DNA of 21,180 nucleotides from a virus: IMG/VR virus record IMGVR_UViG_3300003937_000029, positions 1 to 21,180 of that record; one strand, given 5' to 3'. A program made the translations under genes and the position numbers. Below, piece by piece: positions 3,686 through 20,207 of the stretch; within the stretch, counting starts at the first letter, position 1, and the number at the start of each line of letters is the position of its first letter. The notes beneath the pieces are model-generated. The model was not told the origin of the DNA. It did not search any database and saw only the letters and a program-made list of their open reading frames with translations.

Positions 3686-3837
3686 TACCTTCTTCCATAT
3701 ACAGGTAATTGTGGTCCTTTTGTTTTTTCCTTAGCCAACCACTTTTTGTGTTGAACTGCAGTTCTACCTTCAGTAGCCCACTTTTTATTTAATGCTGCTT
3801 TTTTACGTTTTCTATCTTTTGCTTTACTGTTTGGCAT
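3685..3837 (-). CDS. Small basic protein of unknown function (50 aa)
   Basis: A 50-codon gene that fills the space between the thioredoxin-like and zincin-like genes exactly: its ATG overlaps the upstream stop (TAATG) and its stop overlaps the downstream ATG (TAATG). The product begins MPNSKAKDRKRKKAALNKKW and continues with GRTAVQHKKWLAKEK. It is very rich in Lys and Arg with no hydrophobic segment, so it should be a soluble, nucleic-acid-like or acidic-partner-binding peptide. I have a general memory of similar short Lys/Arg-rich proteins in marine myoviruses but cannot name a family. Perfect stop/start coupling at both ends is the main reason to believe it is real. Confidence 0.75.
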   Translation of the reverse strand: MPNSKAKDRKRKKAALNKKWATEGRTAVQHKKWLAKEKTKGPQLPVYGRR

Positions 3838-4280
3838 TAGAACACATCTCCAGACATCGCATCTTGAATTGCCTTTTTAAGATGTTTATTAGTTACATCT
3901 ACAACACCATCCATATCAGCTTTCCAAACTTCTTTCTTTTTTCCATTATGAAATAGTGCAATAGATGGATAATTTCGTATTCTGAGTTTCTTAGCAACTT
4001 TTTTAACTTCTGAATGGTCTACTTTATAAATAACACATCCTTCAAATCCTTTTACTCCATCAAATAATTTCTTATCAAGAGTTGCAAATTGATATGGTGC
4101 TGTAAAATGAATAAGAACAAATCCTTTTGCTATTTTCTTTTTAAAATTGTCATCGGTTAATGATTCTATTGGTGATTTAGGTTTATCTTGTGCGTTTACT
4201 ACGTTTCCACACAATACAATTGTTATTCCAATTACACATAACAATTTAAAACCCCATCTAATTAATTGTGATTTATTCAT
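3837..4280 (-). CDS. Exported thioredoxin-fold protein lacking the CxxC
   Basis: The first 30 residues form a signal peptide or signal anchor (hydrophobic core LLCVIGITIVLCG, likely cut after NVVNA). The rest has the thioredoxin order. A beta strand FVLIHFTAP sits where WCGPC should be, then GCVIYKVD, then a helix VAKKLRI, then RNYPSIALFHNGK with the conserved cis-proline (Pro105). The active-site cysteines are missing: the loop reads A-P-Y-Q-F-A (residues 61-66). It therefore cannot be a dithiol oxidoreductase and more likely acts as a binding or chaperone-like domain in the periplasm. Cys82 is the only cysteine left in the mature part. It follows the MshEN-like membrane protein after two bases. 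Fold call is by motif pattern; role unknown. Confidence 0.7.
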   Translation of the reverse strand: MNKSQLIRWGFKLLCVIGITIVLCGNVVNAQDKPKSPIESLTDDNFKKKIAKGFVLIHFTAPYQFATLDKKLFDGVKGFEGCVIYKVDHSEVKKVAKKLRIRNYPSIALFHNGKKKEVWKADMDGVVDVTNKHLKKAIQDAMSGDVF

Positions 4281-4867: not shown

Positions 4868-5191
4868 TTATCCCCATTTTCTCTTTTTTCTAAGATGTTT
4901 ATTCCATCTCTTTTTATTAAATCCTTTTTTCCAAGATTTACTACCTTTATGAAAAACAATTACCCTTGGACCAGAATGTATACCCCACCTATAACTCATA
5001 GTAAATCGTGGATCTGACCAATAATGTCCATGTCCATCTACATAAATATTAACTACTTTTGTAGAATCATTAATAACTATTTGTTTGTCTGGTTTTTTAT
5101 GATGTTCGTTGGAATGTCGTTTATATCCAAGTGTACTTCCAAGATTAAAACAAAGTATACCAACTAACATAATTTCAAATACTCCTGGCAT
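4868..5191 (-). CDS. His-rich, basic membrane-anchored protein of unknown function
   Basis: This 107-residue protein has an N-terminal hydrophobic segment (PGVFEIMLVGILCFNLGSTLG) that should anchor or export it. After it come the His-rich stretches RHSNEHHKK, DGHGHYW, GIHSGP and FHKGSK (eight His in all), and a very basic Lys/Trp/Arg-rich C-terminus ending HLRKKRKWG. The ATG at 5191 overlaps the upstream stop as TGATG, which I prefer to an in-frame TTG one codon earlier. No family recognised. The His clusters could bind metal, and the neighbours are also Cys-rich, but this is only suggestive. Confidence 0.65.
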   Translation of the reverse strand: MPGVFEIMLVGILCFNLGSTLGYKRHSNEHHKKPDKQIVINDSTKVVNIYVDGHGHYWSDPRFTMSYRWGIHSGPRVIVFHKGSKSWKKGFNKKRWNKHLRKKRKWG

Positions 5192-5811
5192 CAATGTCCC
5201 CCATAATCAGAATACGGTGTATTTGCTGTATCCTTCTCTACTTTTAAATTTGTAAATTCTATTCTACCTTCCATATTAGCTTCTGCATATGGATTATAAA
5301 ATATACCTTCACCTTCACCACTTATTGTCCAACTATCTCCACTTTGACTTATTGTTTCTATATGTGCTTCTCCTGAAACGGCTACATCTGAATCACCAAT
5401 AATTTCCATTCTTACCCATTTACTTGGTTCTCCATGCATACAAGCTCTTGGACATACTGGACATACACTTGGCCATTGATACTGTCCTTCATCGATTGGT
5501 AATCCATTAGATGTATCACCTTCCCAATCTGTAAATATTACGGCGTAGTGTTCTTTATTTAAGTCTACTCTACTATCTTCCTTTTGAAAGTGAATAACTA
5601 ATATTTTCTTAACAAATGTTTTTGTAGTATCAAATCCCACATATTCAATTTCTTCAGCAAACGTTGTAATTCGTTGATATTCTGCTTGTACATCTATTTC
5701 TTCACCATTTAACCATAACTTCATTGGATATTCTTCTTCCAATAAATCTTCACAGCTCCATGAACTCCAAGTAAACATTAAAGTTAATACCAAAAATAGT
5801 TTTTTAATCAT
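5191..5811 (-). CDS. Secreted protein with a CxxCxxxC cluster, unknown function
   Basis: I start this gene at the ATG at 5811, giving 206 residues that begin with a clear signal peptide (MIKKLFLVLTLMFTWSSWS, then Cys-Glu-Asp). The frame is open a further 23 codons upstream, but that stretch is the cysteine-rich small gene read in another frame. The junction is TAAAATG, with GGAAAG as a plausible ribosome binding site. A Cys directly after the hydrophobic core (SWSC) may be a lipobox, making this a lipoprotein. The mature part is beta-rich and acidic, with SVCPVCPRACMHGEPSKW in the middle and a closing strand-rich region (GDSWTISGEGEGIFYNPYAE). The three cysteines CPVCPRAC could bind metal or form a disulfide. 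No family recognised. Confidence 0.68.
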   Translation of the reverse strand: MIKKLFLVLTLMFTWSSWSCEDLLEEEYPMKLWLNGEEIDVQAEYQRITTFAEEIEYVGFDTTKTFVKKILVIHFQKEDSRVDLNKEHYAVIFTDWEGDTSNGLPIDEGQYQWPSVCPVCPRACMHGEPSKWVRMEIIGDSDVAVSGEAHIETISQSGDSWTISGEGEGIFYNPYAEANMEGRIEFTNLKVEKDTANTPYSDYGGH

Positions 5812-5812
5812 T

Positions 5813-5893
5813 TTACTTTCCTTTCCCACATTGACAATTTTCACAAGTGCAATTTTCACATTCACAATTTGGATTGTCACAGTTATTTTTCAT
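5813..5893 (-). CDS. Cysteine-rich metallothionein-like peptide (26 aa)
   Basis: A 26-residue open frame with seven cysteines at positions 5, 10, 12, 15, 17, 20 and 22; the core reads CECENCTCENCQC. The five-residue unit C-E-N-C-x is repeated, and in DNA this is a repeated 15-base unit. Alternating C-x-C and C-x-x-C spacing with no hydrophobic residues is the signature of metallothioneins, which bind Zn, Cu or Cd through thiolate clusters. A good ribosome binding site (AGGAG, 8 bases before the ATG) overlaps the end of the upstream gene, and the stop is one base from the ATG of the next gene (TAAAATG). Real gene status is strongly supported by the start signal, tight fit and composition. Metal binding is inferred. 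Confidence 0.75.
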   Translation of the reverse strand: MKNNCDNPNCECENCTCENCQCGKGK

Positions 5894-5903
5894 TTTAGTT
5901 CTC

Positions 5904-6305
5904 CTATAATCTTAATCTTTTACGCCAACGGTCATATGTTGCTCCATCGGCCGTCATATATATTTTACTCGAAATCTTATACTGTTTCTTTCCATCACGA
6001 GTAACTTCCCATTCTGCGACTCCATATTTCACACTAAGATTGTGGTCATATGGTATCGTAATTTTTTTATGTTTACCACTTATAAAATCGGACTTAGAAA
6101 TACTTTTAAAGTGTGGAATACTTGTAGATTGTTTTCTTCCACTTTTCTCTGCCTGTTTCTTTAATTGTTGTACTTGTTTGTCAATCTTCTGTGCTTCTTG
6201 AGATGCCTTCTCTACTTTCTTTAGAAATTTTTCCCATTTACTTTGACCAAAAGTTACATCGGGTAATCCCACCAATAATATTAAACTTAATAGTATGTAT
6301 TTCAT
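5904..6305 (-). CDS. Secreted coiled-coil protein of unknown function
   Basis: This 133-residue protein starts MKYILLSLILLVGLPDVTFG, a typical Sec signal peptide with the mature part beginning QSKWEKFLKK. A Lys/Gln/Glu-rich helix follows (KVEKASQEAQKIDKQVQQLK) that should form a coiled coil. The C-terminal half is a small beta domain (KITIPYDHNLSVKYGVAEWE). I choose the ATG at 6305 over the TTG at 6317 because TAAAATG spacing to the upstream stop matches the next junction in the operon. No enzyme motif is visible. It follows the beta-rich outer-membrane candidate directly and may be its periplasmic partner; that is inference. Confidence 0.65.
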   Translation of the reverse strand: MKYILLSLILLVGLPDVTFGQSKWEKFLKKVEKASQEAQKIDKQVQQLKKQAEKSGRKQSTSIPHFKSISKSDFISGKHKKITIPYDHNLSVKYGVAEWEVTRDGKKQYKISSKIYMTADGATYDRWRKRLRL

Positions 6306-6306
6306 T

Positions 6307-7593
6307 TTATAATCCAAGTCCTAAAAATTGATAATTCAAACCAACTTTAATATCATAGGCTGGTCTTTCCCAGTAATCTAAATATTTTCCTTCAACATAG
6401 AATCCCAAATTTTCTTGTAATTTAAATCCTATAATTGCTCCAAGGTCATAATCCATCCAAATCTCTGTCCCTTTATCTAAAAATTCAAAGGTTTCAGGTT
6501 CTCTTCCTGCCTCATCATGTTCTTTCCACGCAACTGCGTTATGATAAGAATACTTATCTAACCCATAATGATACGGATATAAACTTCCCCATGCATGAAT
6601 CCAAAAATTTTCAGTATATTGATACCAATCTAATCCAAGTGATACTGATATTTCTCTTTGACTTCCCAATCCTTTTAACTGTTTATCAAACCAATTTTCT
6701 AATAATCCTGGAAAATGATATTGATAAAATTCTCTATCAGACATTGCCATTAGATTTCCATCTCTGTCAAACCATCTCCAATCTTGACCTACATATCCTA
6801 CATATTCACCAGTATTATTATCATAAATAGATATTCCACCATCACCAATTCCATCACCATCTATATCACCACTGTATCCTCGGTCATCTACTCCAAATTC
6901 ATCTTCTGCGAAATCCCACCAAGATGAAGTATACCAACTTGAATCAAGAACAGTTGGTGCGAATCCATATGCTGGATGTGTTCTTGCTCCCAGTCCAACT
7001 GAAATATTAAAACTACCACCTTCAGTTTCAAATTCTTTTCTTAATCTTAAATCACCTTGACCATATCTTAAATCTTCCATCTCCATATCTTGATATTTTA
7101 ATTTAAGAATAAACCAATCACCAAGATATCTCAAAAAATATTCTTGTGATTTAAATTGTTCATCCCACCTGCGATTTTCTGAATACTTTAAAAGATACTC
7201 AAATCCTTTTACTCTGCCTATTGTAGCAGCTTCATTAGGATTTGCTTGACCATTTCCTTTATACCAATCTCCACCTACACCAGCGTTTTTCACACCTCGT
7301 TTTGCTTCATAATGAAATCTGGCAATTTTTCTTATTCCAAATGAAATATCAAAATCTGGTTCTAAATCTCTTTCTTCTTTATGTACAGTTAATTCACCAC
7401 TTAACCAATTTTCCATTCCCGTTTCAGGATCAATCATTGAAAGTACATATCTATCATCTTCCCATTTTGGTGAAGATAGATTGAACCCGGCATAAACCGT
7501 TGAATACTTAAAAAAGTTTTGAAATGCTCCTTCTAATCCCTGTCCAACTAAAAAGGATGTTGATAACAACAATCCTACTAATACTTTTCTCAT
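6307..7593 (-). CDS. Exported beta-rich protein, probable outer-membrane beta-barrel
   Basis: This 428-residue protein has a signal peptide (MRKVLVGLLLSTSFLVGQG) followed by many short amphipathic, aromatic-rich strands (YVGQDWRWF, EYFLRYLGDWFILKLKY, REISVSLGLDWYQY, LGFYVEGKYLDYW). It ends in the strand AYDIKVGLNYQFLGLGL, as expected for an outer-membrane barrel, although the last residue is not the usual Phe or Trp. An insertion near residue 240-255 contains DIDGDGIGDGG, a calcium-loop-like Asp/Gly repeat. The gene has a good ribosome binding site (GGAG) and lies just downstream of the MscS-like gene. I do not recall a named family. A host-envelope destination is supported by the signal peptide; whether it is a barrel or a virion component is open. 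Confidence 0.68.
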   Translation of the reverse strand: MRKVLVGLLLSTSFLVGQGLEGAFQNFFKYSTVYAGFNLSSPKWEDDRYVLSMIDPETGMENWLSGELTVHKEERDLEPDFDISFGIRKIARFHYEAKRGVKNAGVGGDWYKGNGQANPNEAATIGRVKGFEYLLKYSENRRWDEQFKSQEYFLRYLGDWFILKLKYQDMEMEDLRYGQGDLRLRKEFETEGGSFNISVGLGARTHPAYGFAPTVLDSSWYTSSWWDFAEDEFGVDDRGYSGDIDGDGIGDGGISIYDNNTGEYVGYVGQDWRWFDRDGNLMAMSDREFYQYHFPGLLENWFDKQLKGLGSQREISVSLGLDWYQYTENFWIHAWGSLYPYHYGLDKYSYHNAVAWKEHDEAGREPETFEFLDKGTEIWMDYDLGAIIGFKLQENLGFYVEGKYLDYWERPAYDIKVGLNYQFLGLGL

Positions 7594-7623: not shown

Positions 7624-7632
7624 TATAAATAT
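7624..7632 (+). other. TATAAATAT motif in intergenic gap (copy 2 of 4)
   Basis: The octamer TATAAATA matches the T4 late promoter core but lies on the plus strand, against the direction of all genes. It directly abuts the stop of the MscS-like gene. See the copies at 3267, 8076 and 10992. Confidence 0.4.
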
Positions 7633-8039
7633 TAATGTTTTACAGTTTTCTCTTTTGAGACAGCATGCAATCCTTGTTTTTCTTTATCTGTGAGTTTATC
7701 AGTTGATTTTGGCAAATAACCATCTTTCGCCCTTCTTGATCCGGGCGGTAACCTTTTTTCTAAGGTCAGGTCTTTTAGCTTTTCGTTTGGTACAATCATT
7801 TTACTTCCCCTGTCAGTCATATAAAATGTTGTTTTAGTTATACCGACTCTTACGACTCTAGCTTCACGCCCACTTATATAGATAACATCATCATTATTAA
7901 AATCATTACCCATAAAGACTTGCATTCCTTGAATCATACTCATTATAGACTCTTTAAAAAAGAATCCTAATGCAAATGTAACAGCTATCCAACCATAATG
8001 ACCTATGAATTGTTCCATAAGCGTTTGTTGGCTGTCCAC
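7632..8039 (-). CDS. Miniature MscS-like membrane protein
   Basis: This 135-residue protein has one hydrophobic helix (about 13-45, GWIAVTFALGFFFKESIMSM). It is followed directly by a region (46-96) that matches the pore helix plus beta domain of MscS-family mechanosensitive channels: GNDFNNDDVIYISGREARVV, then GITKTTFYMTDRG, then MIVPNEKL. Compare the family pattern of F-x-x-G-D-x-V, G-x-V, T-x-x-x-T-x-D-G, and I-P-N-x-x-L. MscS itself has three membrane helices and a C-terminal cage. Here only a TM3-like helix and the beta domain remain, ending in a charged tail (KDGYLPKSTDKLTDKEKQG). It starts at GTG with the site AGGAG seven bases upstream. Channel activity is inferred; it could also oligomerise with host MscS. 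Confidence 0.72.
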   Translation of the reverse strand: MDSQQTLMEQFIGHYGWIAVTFALGFFFKESIMSMIQGMQVFMGNDFNNDDVIYISGREARVVRVGITKTTFYMTDRGSKMIVPNEKLKDLTLEKRLPPGSRRAKDGYLPKSTDKLTDKEKQGLHAVSKEKTVKH

Positions 8040-18316: not shown

Positions 18317-19990
18317 TTAAAACATAACACCAACGGAATCACCTACGGCTCTTCCTTCTATGTCTGTATTGGGATATTTTAATTCAAATATGGATGGATC
18401 CAATGAAGGATATACTATTCCATCTTTTGTTGCGTAGTTTATATCATATACATTCCCAGAATATCCAGATGCTGCTTGCCACTTATTGGTAATTAACACG
18501 GGATGTTTTTGTGGATTATCTTGTGATGGTGGAACTACTGCACCAACACCTTCTACTAATGATATCTGATGTGCTAGTTCTGCTATAACAATTGGTTGAT
18601 TTATTTGCCATCTATCTATATTAAAAAACTCCTTAACCCTTTCTATACATCTTAAAGTTATTTCATTTTTATTAAATCCTTTTCGTGCTATAAAACCAAA
18701 TTTAATTCCAATGTTAATAATCCAAGCATTTTTAATATTAACAGCATCCGTCACTAATCTATATTGACTAAGATATGTTTTAAGATTCTGTTTAACTGCA
18801 ACATTTAATGGTATAAGTTTTTTACTCTGGTCATATCCAAGTGTGTATAAATTCATAGCCATTGGATTAGGAAGTTTACTAAGTGAAGATTGTATATTTT
18901 TAGCTTTAAGTTGATCCAAATTTCTTTCATCAATAAAAATACTTGAACCGTCTGAAGTTTCTTTTTGCATACTTGGAATATTTAATTGTTCATCTTGAAC
19001 GATATAAGCCTTTGCTACTGCCCCATATTTAGTATGCATAGCATAAGTTCTTGTAATATAATCTTCTTTTGTTACAGCTCTACCTTGTGCTTGAAAATAT
19101 GCTAAAGCGTTATTTTTAATTTCAGTTGTAGATTCTGCTGATTTTCCTCCTGTTGCTGGATATGGATTAGTCACAGCTACCGAATTCTGAGTTGAAGTAA
19201 CTAAATCTGTACTAAGACCAGTAGTTTCTTGAGTGAAACCAATATTGGTTATATTTTTTATTTTATCTGCTGCTACATTATCACCTATTCCACCCCCATA
19301 AGCATATTTAACAGTAAGAGTTGTACTTGAAGGTGCTTGACCATATGCCTTAGTTTTCAAAAAGTTTGCTGGATCAAAATATGTATCAAGTTTGCTTGGA
19401 CTACCTGGTAAAGATGAACCAACTGAATTCGGGTTTGGAACTATTTCTTCATCTGGACTATCTGATATACCAGAACCAAATCTTAATTCGGTTGAACCAT
19501 CTTGAATAATATAAGTAACAAATCGTCTTGGTGTCTTTTTTAGTTTTAATAAATAAGGAGCTTGGTCATTATACTGAACTAAACTTGGATCATTAGCGGC
19601 TGTATTCTCTACATCTATAAATGTAGTATCTTGTGCCAAATATGGAACTTCATACCATTTATTATTATCACTATCGATTACTGAGATTACTTCTATAATA
19701 TTTTTTTGTGCTAATTTAATTCTTGGATAAGATTCTGCCGTACCAAAAGTAAAGGTTTCTGACTTAATAGTTCCACTTTGTATTCTTATACCTTTTTTTA
19801 ATAAATAAAATGTTGGAACTTTAGTTGTTTGATTTATTTCATATACACTAATATCTAATGGATCAAATGAACTTGAATATTTAAAATTACAATCTTCTAA
19901 TGTTCTAAATACAACACCACTGTCTGAAGTAATTTGGGCTCCTTCATTAACAGTCAAAGCATAATTCATATCTGGTTTAACATTCTGCAT
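18317..19990 (-). CDS. 6: Baseplate wedge gp6-like protein, main part
   Basis: This 557-residue frame holds most of a T4 gp6-type baseplate wedge subunit. It starts at QNVKPDMNYALTVNEGAQIT and includes FRTLEDCNFKYSSSFDPLDI, FYLLKKGIRIQSG, TTLTVKYAYGGGIGDNVAADK and the helical EIKNNALAYFQAQGRAVTKEDY-like gpJ-type region near residue 290. It ends VGDSVGVMF. The first codon (ATG at 19990) is inside the 76-residue upstream frame and lacks a ribosome binding site, so it is not a real start. Together with the upstream piece it makes about 633 residues, against 660 for T4 gp6. From memory of related proteins about 35-40 residues are missing at the junction. gp6 forms the wedge with gp25 and gp53. 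Confidence 0.82.
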   Translation of the reverse strand: MQNVKPDMNYALTVNEGAQITSDSGVVFRTLEDCNFKYSSSFDPLDISVYEINQTTKVPTFYLLKKGIRIQSGTIKSETFTFGTAESYPRIKLAQKNIIEVISVIDSDNNKWYEVPYLAQDTTFIDVENTAANDPSLVQYNDQAPYLLKLKKTPRRFVTYIIQDGSTELRFGSGISDSPDEEIVPNPNSVGSSLPGSPSKLDTYFDPANFLKTKAYGQAPSSTTLTVKYAYGGGIGDNVAADKIKNITNIGFTQETTGLSTDLVTSTQNSVAVTNPYPATGGKSAESTTEIKNNALAYFQAQGRAVTKEDYITRTYAMHTKYGAVAKAYIVQDEQLNIPSMQKETSDGSSIFIDERNLDQLKAKNIQSSLSKLPNPMAMNLYTLGYDQSKKLIPLNVAVKQNLKTYLSQYRLVTDAVNIKNAWIINIGIKFGFIARKGFNKNEITLRCIERVKEFFNIDRWQINQPIVIAELAHQISLVEGVGAVVPPSQDNPQKHPVLITNKWQAASGYSGNVYDINYATKDGIVYPSLDPSIFELKYPNTDIEGRAVGDSVGVMF

Positions 19991-20207
19991 AAGCTAATAA
20001 CATTTCTTTAAATTGACTATCAACATAATAAGAAAGAACATCTCCAACATATGATGCCATTTCTATAAACATCATACCAGGAGAGGCCTCGTTAAAATCA
20101 TTATAGGTATTTGGATAATAAGTTTTTGCAAACTCTATTAGTCCTTCTCTAAAAGCACCAAAATCTTTATTTAAATATCTAACATCCTTTTGGACTCTTG
20201 TTGCCAT
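19977..20207 (-). CDS. 6: Baseplate wedge gp6-like protein, N-terminal fragment
   Basis: These 76 residues start MATRVQKDVRYLNKDFGAFR and contain FNEASPGMMFIEMASYVGDV and LSYYVDSQFKEMLLAYAE, the conserved N-terminus of gp6-like wedge proteins in marine myoviruses. A good ribosome binding site (GGAGAAATAAAATG) marks this as the true start. After AYAE the frame reads Cys and then stops, where relatives continue with another helix. The rest of the protein resumes in a different frame, overlapping by 14 bases. It follows the gp25-like gene by 17 bases. Confidence 0.8.
   Translation of the reverse strand: MATRVQKDVRYLNKDFGAFREGLIEFAKTYYPNTYNDFNEASPGMMFIEMASYVGDVLSYYVDSQFKEMLLAYAEC

Follow-up and report, generated by a model that had tools for sequence, protein, structure and literature searches.

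A 26-residue cysteine-rich gene recurrent in environmental phages may encode a metallothionein-like peptide

INTRODUCTION

Is an open reading frame (ORF) of only 26 codons, wedged between two larger genes of an environmental phage, a genuine gene, and if so, does its peptide handle metal? The question is raised by a locus on the minus strand of IMG/VR virus record IMGVR_UViG_3300003937_000029, and the whole 21,180-nt stretch of DNA analyzed here is referred to as the window. A first-pass annotation had read the ORF as a phage-encoded metallothionein-like gene. If true, metal buffering would represent a type of accessory function new to phages. In the open-access literature searched, outside of which many subscription papers lie, we found no report of a phage or viral metallothionein, including metallothionein as an auxiliary metabolic gene, and a review of phage small proteins makes no mention of metal, zinc, or cysteine.

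RESULTS

The ORF extends on the minus strand from an ATG at positions 5893 to 5891 to a TAA stop at 5815 to 5813 and encodes MKNNCDNPNCECENCTCENCQCGKGK, so that the proposed gene of 26 residues and seven cysteines was borne out at positions 5813 to 5893. Cysteine accounts for 27% of the peptide, aromatic residues and His are absent, and four acidic residues stand beside three basic ones. The core reads C-x-N-P-x-C-x-C-x-N-C-x-C-x-N-C-x-C, with the cysteines in CxC (three instances) and CxxC spacing, and the peptide contains neither a hydrophobic core nor a signal peptide. At the DNA level, the repeat unit TGTGAAAATTGyACT is nearly perfect in the window. The strong ribosome-binding site that had been claimed corresponds to an AGGAG sequence 7 nt upstream of the ATG (5905 to 5901, minus strand), which overlaps the upstream gene's TAG stop. 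The predicted exact stop/start spacing was likewise found, as a single base separates the stop of the peptide gene from the ATG of the next gene (5811 to 5809). The ORF is almost certainly a coding gene, of a kind that annotation pipelines would miss.

All three neighboring genes lie on the minus strand. The downstream gene (5191 to 5811) encodes a protein of 206 amino acids (aa) with a signal-peptide-like start (MIKKLFLV...), and the upstream gene (5904 to 6305) encodes a 133-aa protein, also with a signal-peptide-like start, that has homologues in two related loci (L031 and L032). Next to it lies the gene of a 428-aa protein (6307 to 7593) that we judged by eye to be outer-membrane-like and that had no match in Pfam and PHROG searches; in most relatives, the peptide gene lies directly 3′ of this gene, the anchor of a conserved slot. 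The first-pass annotation held that the peptide gene is hidden by a longer frame of the downstream gene, and a 229-aa frame starting from a GTG at 5880 is indeed present in the ORF list of the window. However, in four loci (L161, L162, L177, and L078) the homologue of the downstream gene directly follows the outer-membrane-like gene and starts at its own ATG without the extension. Since relatives that lack the peptide start the downstream gene in this way, the 23-codon extension is, by this comparison, spurious and the ATG at 5811 represents the real start. The first-pass annotation had also asked whether relatives conserve this extension in place of the peptide gene; the Cys pattern, the ATG, and the ribosome site recur, whereas the extension is not conserved.

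The peptide gene is located in a variable block between the tail genes and the DNA primase. Its assignment to a late operon is plausible in that it lies on the same strand just after baseplate and tail genes, but it has to be qualified by the variability of this tail-to-primase block. Both the gp6-like baseplate gene and the primase share 37 to 44% identity with their counterparts in Flavobacterium phage immuto and Microcystis phage Mel-JY01, and the host is likely a member of the Bacteroidota. The peptide gene is also present in a near-identical contig of 94.7 kb. A scan of the window for tRNAs and Rfam families gave none.

Several other features of the window were recorded. Positions 3837 to 4280 encode a thioredoxin-fold protein (Pfam E value of 5 × 10−10) with a signal-peptide-like start; its usual CxxC site is apparently replaced (APYQFA, by eye), and the protein is kept in relatives. 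Positions 7632 to 8039 encode a short phage protein with a mechanosensitive ion channel beta-domain (Pfam MS_channel_2nd), 80 to 86% identical in relatives. Compared with the 94.7-kb contig, the window lacks 118 bases at about 1366/1367 and about 115 at about 19985. The first gap splits a gene (1025 to 1249 and 1330 to 2064) that is a single ORF in the related locus L114, and the second splits the gp6-like baseplate gene (18317 to 19990 and 19977 to 20207). Both are probably assembly faults and not biology.

A short cysteine-rich ORF could arise by chance. Simulating the window 400 times with a second-order Markov model produced no ORF with at least 7 Cys and at least 25% Cys, while the same count gave two such ORFs in the real window, the second apparently an 18-aa antisense ORF on the plus strand. 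Because of this second ORF, the simulation alone is not conclusive, and conservation constitutes the stronger evidence. A degenerate DNA pattern for CENCxCENCxC matched 75 IMG/VR contigs, compared with none for the reversed control, and almost every match lay within a short closed ORF whose start codon shortly precedes the match. Looser or shifted patterns matched 107 and 38 contigs, and a tighter pattern that included the start codon matched only 2. The matching contigs form several groups, between which no common flanking protein could be detected in the stretches compared.

For a sample independent of the peptide itself, 78 loci were gathered by means of the outer-membrane-like gene. Sixteen of them counted as close relatives, with at least 68% identity to this gene and a 3′ flank of 300 bp or more. 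In 13 of the 16, a short Cys peptide is encoded on the same strand no more than 1.5 kb downstream of the outer-membrane-like gene; a 14th (L167) carries one elsewhere, and L161 and L162 have none. None of the loci that are at most 50% identical in the outer-membrane-like gene has a Cys peptide downstream. Since the peptide is found in this place in 13 of the 16 close relatives and in none of the distant loci, it is an accessory gene with a fixed slot in one lineage; it also occupies other slots in other lineages.

The signals of the gene are retained along with its pattern. A purine-rich Shine-Dalgarno (SD)-like site at similar spacing was present in 17 of 17 inspected relatives, in which about seven kinds of gene follow. 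In L031 and L174, the core differs from that of the window by exactly one in-frame 15-bp unit (CENCT). On the aligned phage cores (27 distinct sequences), pN/pS amounted to 0.29 over the core and 0.53 at the non-Cys columns; the invariance of Cys, N, and P in this alignment was partly produced by selecting sequences with the pattern. Pooled phage members contain 27% Cys, less than 2% aromatic residues, and less than 0.5% His, and the set ranges from 17 to 55 residues in length. Collectively, the notion of a phage-encoded metallothionein-like gene is partly upheld in that a coding gene recurs, but this gene is not unique to the present phage and belongs to a broad unannotated set.

When the entire genomes of Flavobacterium phage immuto and Microcystis phage Mel-JY01 were scanned for the pattern, there were only scattered matches without the CxNC unit, mostly antisense in immuto, so that no named phage isolate with the peptide was found by these scans. 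A tblastn search of named phages with the peptide gave no match either, probably owing to low-complexity filtering. The neighbor genes of the other phage groups have only distant matches to cultured phages. Eight loci (L131-L133, L137, L138, L140, L142, and L143) carry a second version of the phage peptide, such as MCENPNCKCENCTCNPCKCTGRDCGC, in which C-x-P-C stands in place of the second C-E-N-C unit. The same Cys-rich array also occurs fused to other proteins (L082, L090, L086, L104, L112, and L115): N-terminally on a protein of about 200 aa that is GrpE-like by eye, C-terminally on a ferredoxin-like protein, and C-terminally on a phage protein beginning MPxxSKSQQRLFG.

The same core, in the form CxNPxCxCxNCxC or CENCxCENCxC, is present in Bacteroidota chromosomes, namely in Parafilimonas (L083), in members of its family (L148-L156), and in Flavobacteriaceae (L092 and L096). 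The neighborhood of the 31-aa Parafilimonas version includes a Cation_efflux gene, a protein with a heavy-metal-binding domain (HMBD), and a TonB receptor bearing an HMA domain. Within the family of Parafilimonas, the motif was found in 10 of 296 genomes, against none for the reversed control. An HMA domain lies within 5 kb in 4 of these 10 genomes, compared with 0.11 expected, although the genomes are related and three of the four cases are one orthologous gene, leaving about two effective events. In 5 of the 10, there is a nearby AraC regulator with an N terminus that by eye has an HMA-like CxxC; Pfam matches only its DNA-binding part.

The 33-aa Flavobacteriaceae version adjoins an ECF-type sigma factor, and such a factor also adjoins chromosomal versions in Lentisphaeria and Arcobacter. 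Cys-rich peptides of 33 aa or longer stand beside an ECF-type sigma factor in the Flavobacteriaceae loci L088, L092, L093, and L096 as well as in L080 and L095, and the Flavobacteriaceae peptide is also found beside a gene that by eye is methylmalonyl-CoA-mutase-like. Peptide and sigma factor possibly form a metal- or redox-response pair. The sequences are short and of low complexity, and the resemblance between phage and chromosomal peptides might reflect convergence instead of common descent.

DISCUSSION

Our analysis suggests, with a probability of roughly 65%, that the phage ORF is translated into a metallothionein-like peptide of the cytosol that acts as a metal-thiolate buffer. We favor this reading because of the CxC/CxxC arrays without a hydrophobic core, the in-frame change in unit number, and the metal genes that neighbor the chromosomal versions. 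The peptide would have no stable apo-fold and would wrap around the metal, so that all seven thiolates join in a single cluster with Cu(I) or with Zn/Cd; the metal bound is probably Cu(I) or Zn. In the cytoplasm of its host, an infecting phage could thereby buffer or store a soft metal ion, and might benefit from protecting the cell until lysis, from supplying metal to metal-dependent proteins, or conceivably from withholding metal. The gene seems to constitute a small accessory cassette that passes between phages and that their host bacteria perhaps share. It should be noted, against the buffer reading, that in the phage the peptide gene has envelope and tail genes, and not metal genes, as its neighbors. 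A broader version, in which many unrelated environmental phages exchange a cassette for a metal-thiolate peptide of 17 to 55 residues that holds Cu or Zn and either protects the cell or starves host metalloenzymes, including defence nucleases, we put forward only tentatively.

None of the alternatives fits as well as a metal-thiolate peptide. The best of them, which we still regard as unlikely, is a small peptide that binds zinc, or regulates in a metal-dependent manner, and acts on a single partner, such as a virion assembly factor, the host RNA polymerase, or a sigma factor, in place of a bulk buffer. The fixed position beside the outer-membrane-like gene in close relatives and the ECF-type sigma factors next to the Flavobacteriaceae, Lentisphaeria, and Arcobacter versions are in line with such a role. 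Nevertheless, the number of Cys units, the peptide length, and the flanking genes vary widely, and beyond the N and P beside the cysteines the peptide offers no conserved surface, hydrophobic or other, which makes it ill-suited to a specific partner.

Quite improbable is a Cys-rich leader ORF that attenuates or couples the next gene according to the cysteine supply, although such a leader would be in keeping with the window, where the ATG of the next gene follows the stop after a single base. Mycobacterial polycysteine leader ORFs (Canestrari et al. 2020, cited in PMC9094748) are leaderless attenuators at operon starts; like the phage ORF, they are very short, Cys-rich, and placed just before another gene. 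The phage ORF, in contrast, has its own SD-like site, lies inside an operon, and precedes not one kind of gene but about seven, which either overlap it or begin up to 25 nt away. Furthermore, N and P beside the cysteines are kept, whereas a leader needs Cys codons only.

We consider it more improbable still that the ORF encodes the precursor of a modified peptide, be it of the radical-SAM thioether type or another Cys-rich RiPP. The near-identical 94.7-kb contig does encode four radical SAM matches, but the only one with a SPASM domain lies about 74 kb from the peptide gene instead of adjacent to it, as in ranthipeptide-like systems, and neither a maturase nor a leader-core layout is found near the gene. 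The other seven records searched gave no clear link: eight radical SAM matches occur in a record without the core motif (G304, IMGVR_UViG_3300025096_002712), and none in six peptide-bearing or related partial records. As a separate observation, among the radical SAM matches of G304 and the four of G004 (IMGVR_UViG_3300032138_000680, 4102 to 40587), some carry B12-binding domains and one carries SPASM; such a gene content is unusual for phages. Finally, a noncoding 15-bp minisatellite or chance ORF, for which the near-perfect DNA repeat in the window might speak, is hardly credible, as relatives with distinct DNA keep the cysteines through TGT/TGC switches and retain the ATG, ribosome site, and stop, the gene was met in its slot by the unbiased route, and no frame-broken copy occurs among those inspected.

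At 17 to 55 codons, and with no metallothionein model match for any of the ten members tested, the peptide set escapes current annotation, and viral metal handling would therefore be undercounted. With 7 Cys in 26 residues, the peptide is close to the smallest metallothioneins known, and synthetic production and direct testing are thus feasible.

Regarding known metallothioneins, the peptide itself matched no metallothionein model in Pfam or NCBIfam, nor any PHROG entry, and a search of PDB chains returned only irrelevant weak matches. The term metallothionein-like thus stands with respect to composition, CxC/CxxC spacing, the in-frame unit change, and look-alikes near metal genes, but not with respect to membership in a named family: as far as sequence can say, the peptide would work like a metallothionein yet be filed in none of them. 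It shares the small size, the Cys content of about 20 to 30%, the CxC/CxxC spacing, and the paucity of aromatics that define the class operationally. A genetic link to metal homeostasis is absent around the phage gene and present for the chromosomal look-alikes, in few independent events.

Among bacterial proteins, the SmtA/BmtA/PmtA type is likewise small and Cys-rich, with metal binding that is known and not, as for the phage peptide, predicted. BmtA sequesters zinc in marine Synechococcus (PMC9337993), and the type combines a Cys9-His cluster with a folded zinc-finger part (PMC7387436). The phage peptide differs from it in that it has seven Cys, lacks both His and aromatic residues, and is matched by no Pfam model.

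Copper metallothioneins of Neurospora crassa and Agaricus bisporus (family fungi-I) are of about the size of the phage peptide, at some 25 aa, and are rich in Ser and Gly. Like the phage peptide, they have seven Cys and are thiolate-only, whereas the phage peptide is rich in Asn and Glu and built of C-E-N-C-x units, and the PDB search gave no sequence link. For such fungal proteins with seven Cys, binding of about six Cu(I) ions has been reported (PMC13107397). The Bacteroidota chromosomal peptides share the very core of the phage peptide, and some of them lie beside HMBD, Cation_efflux, or HMA genes; they differ from it in a longer N-terminal arm, at about 31 to 47 aa with 7 to 11 Cys.
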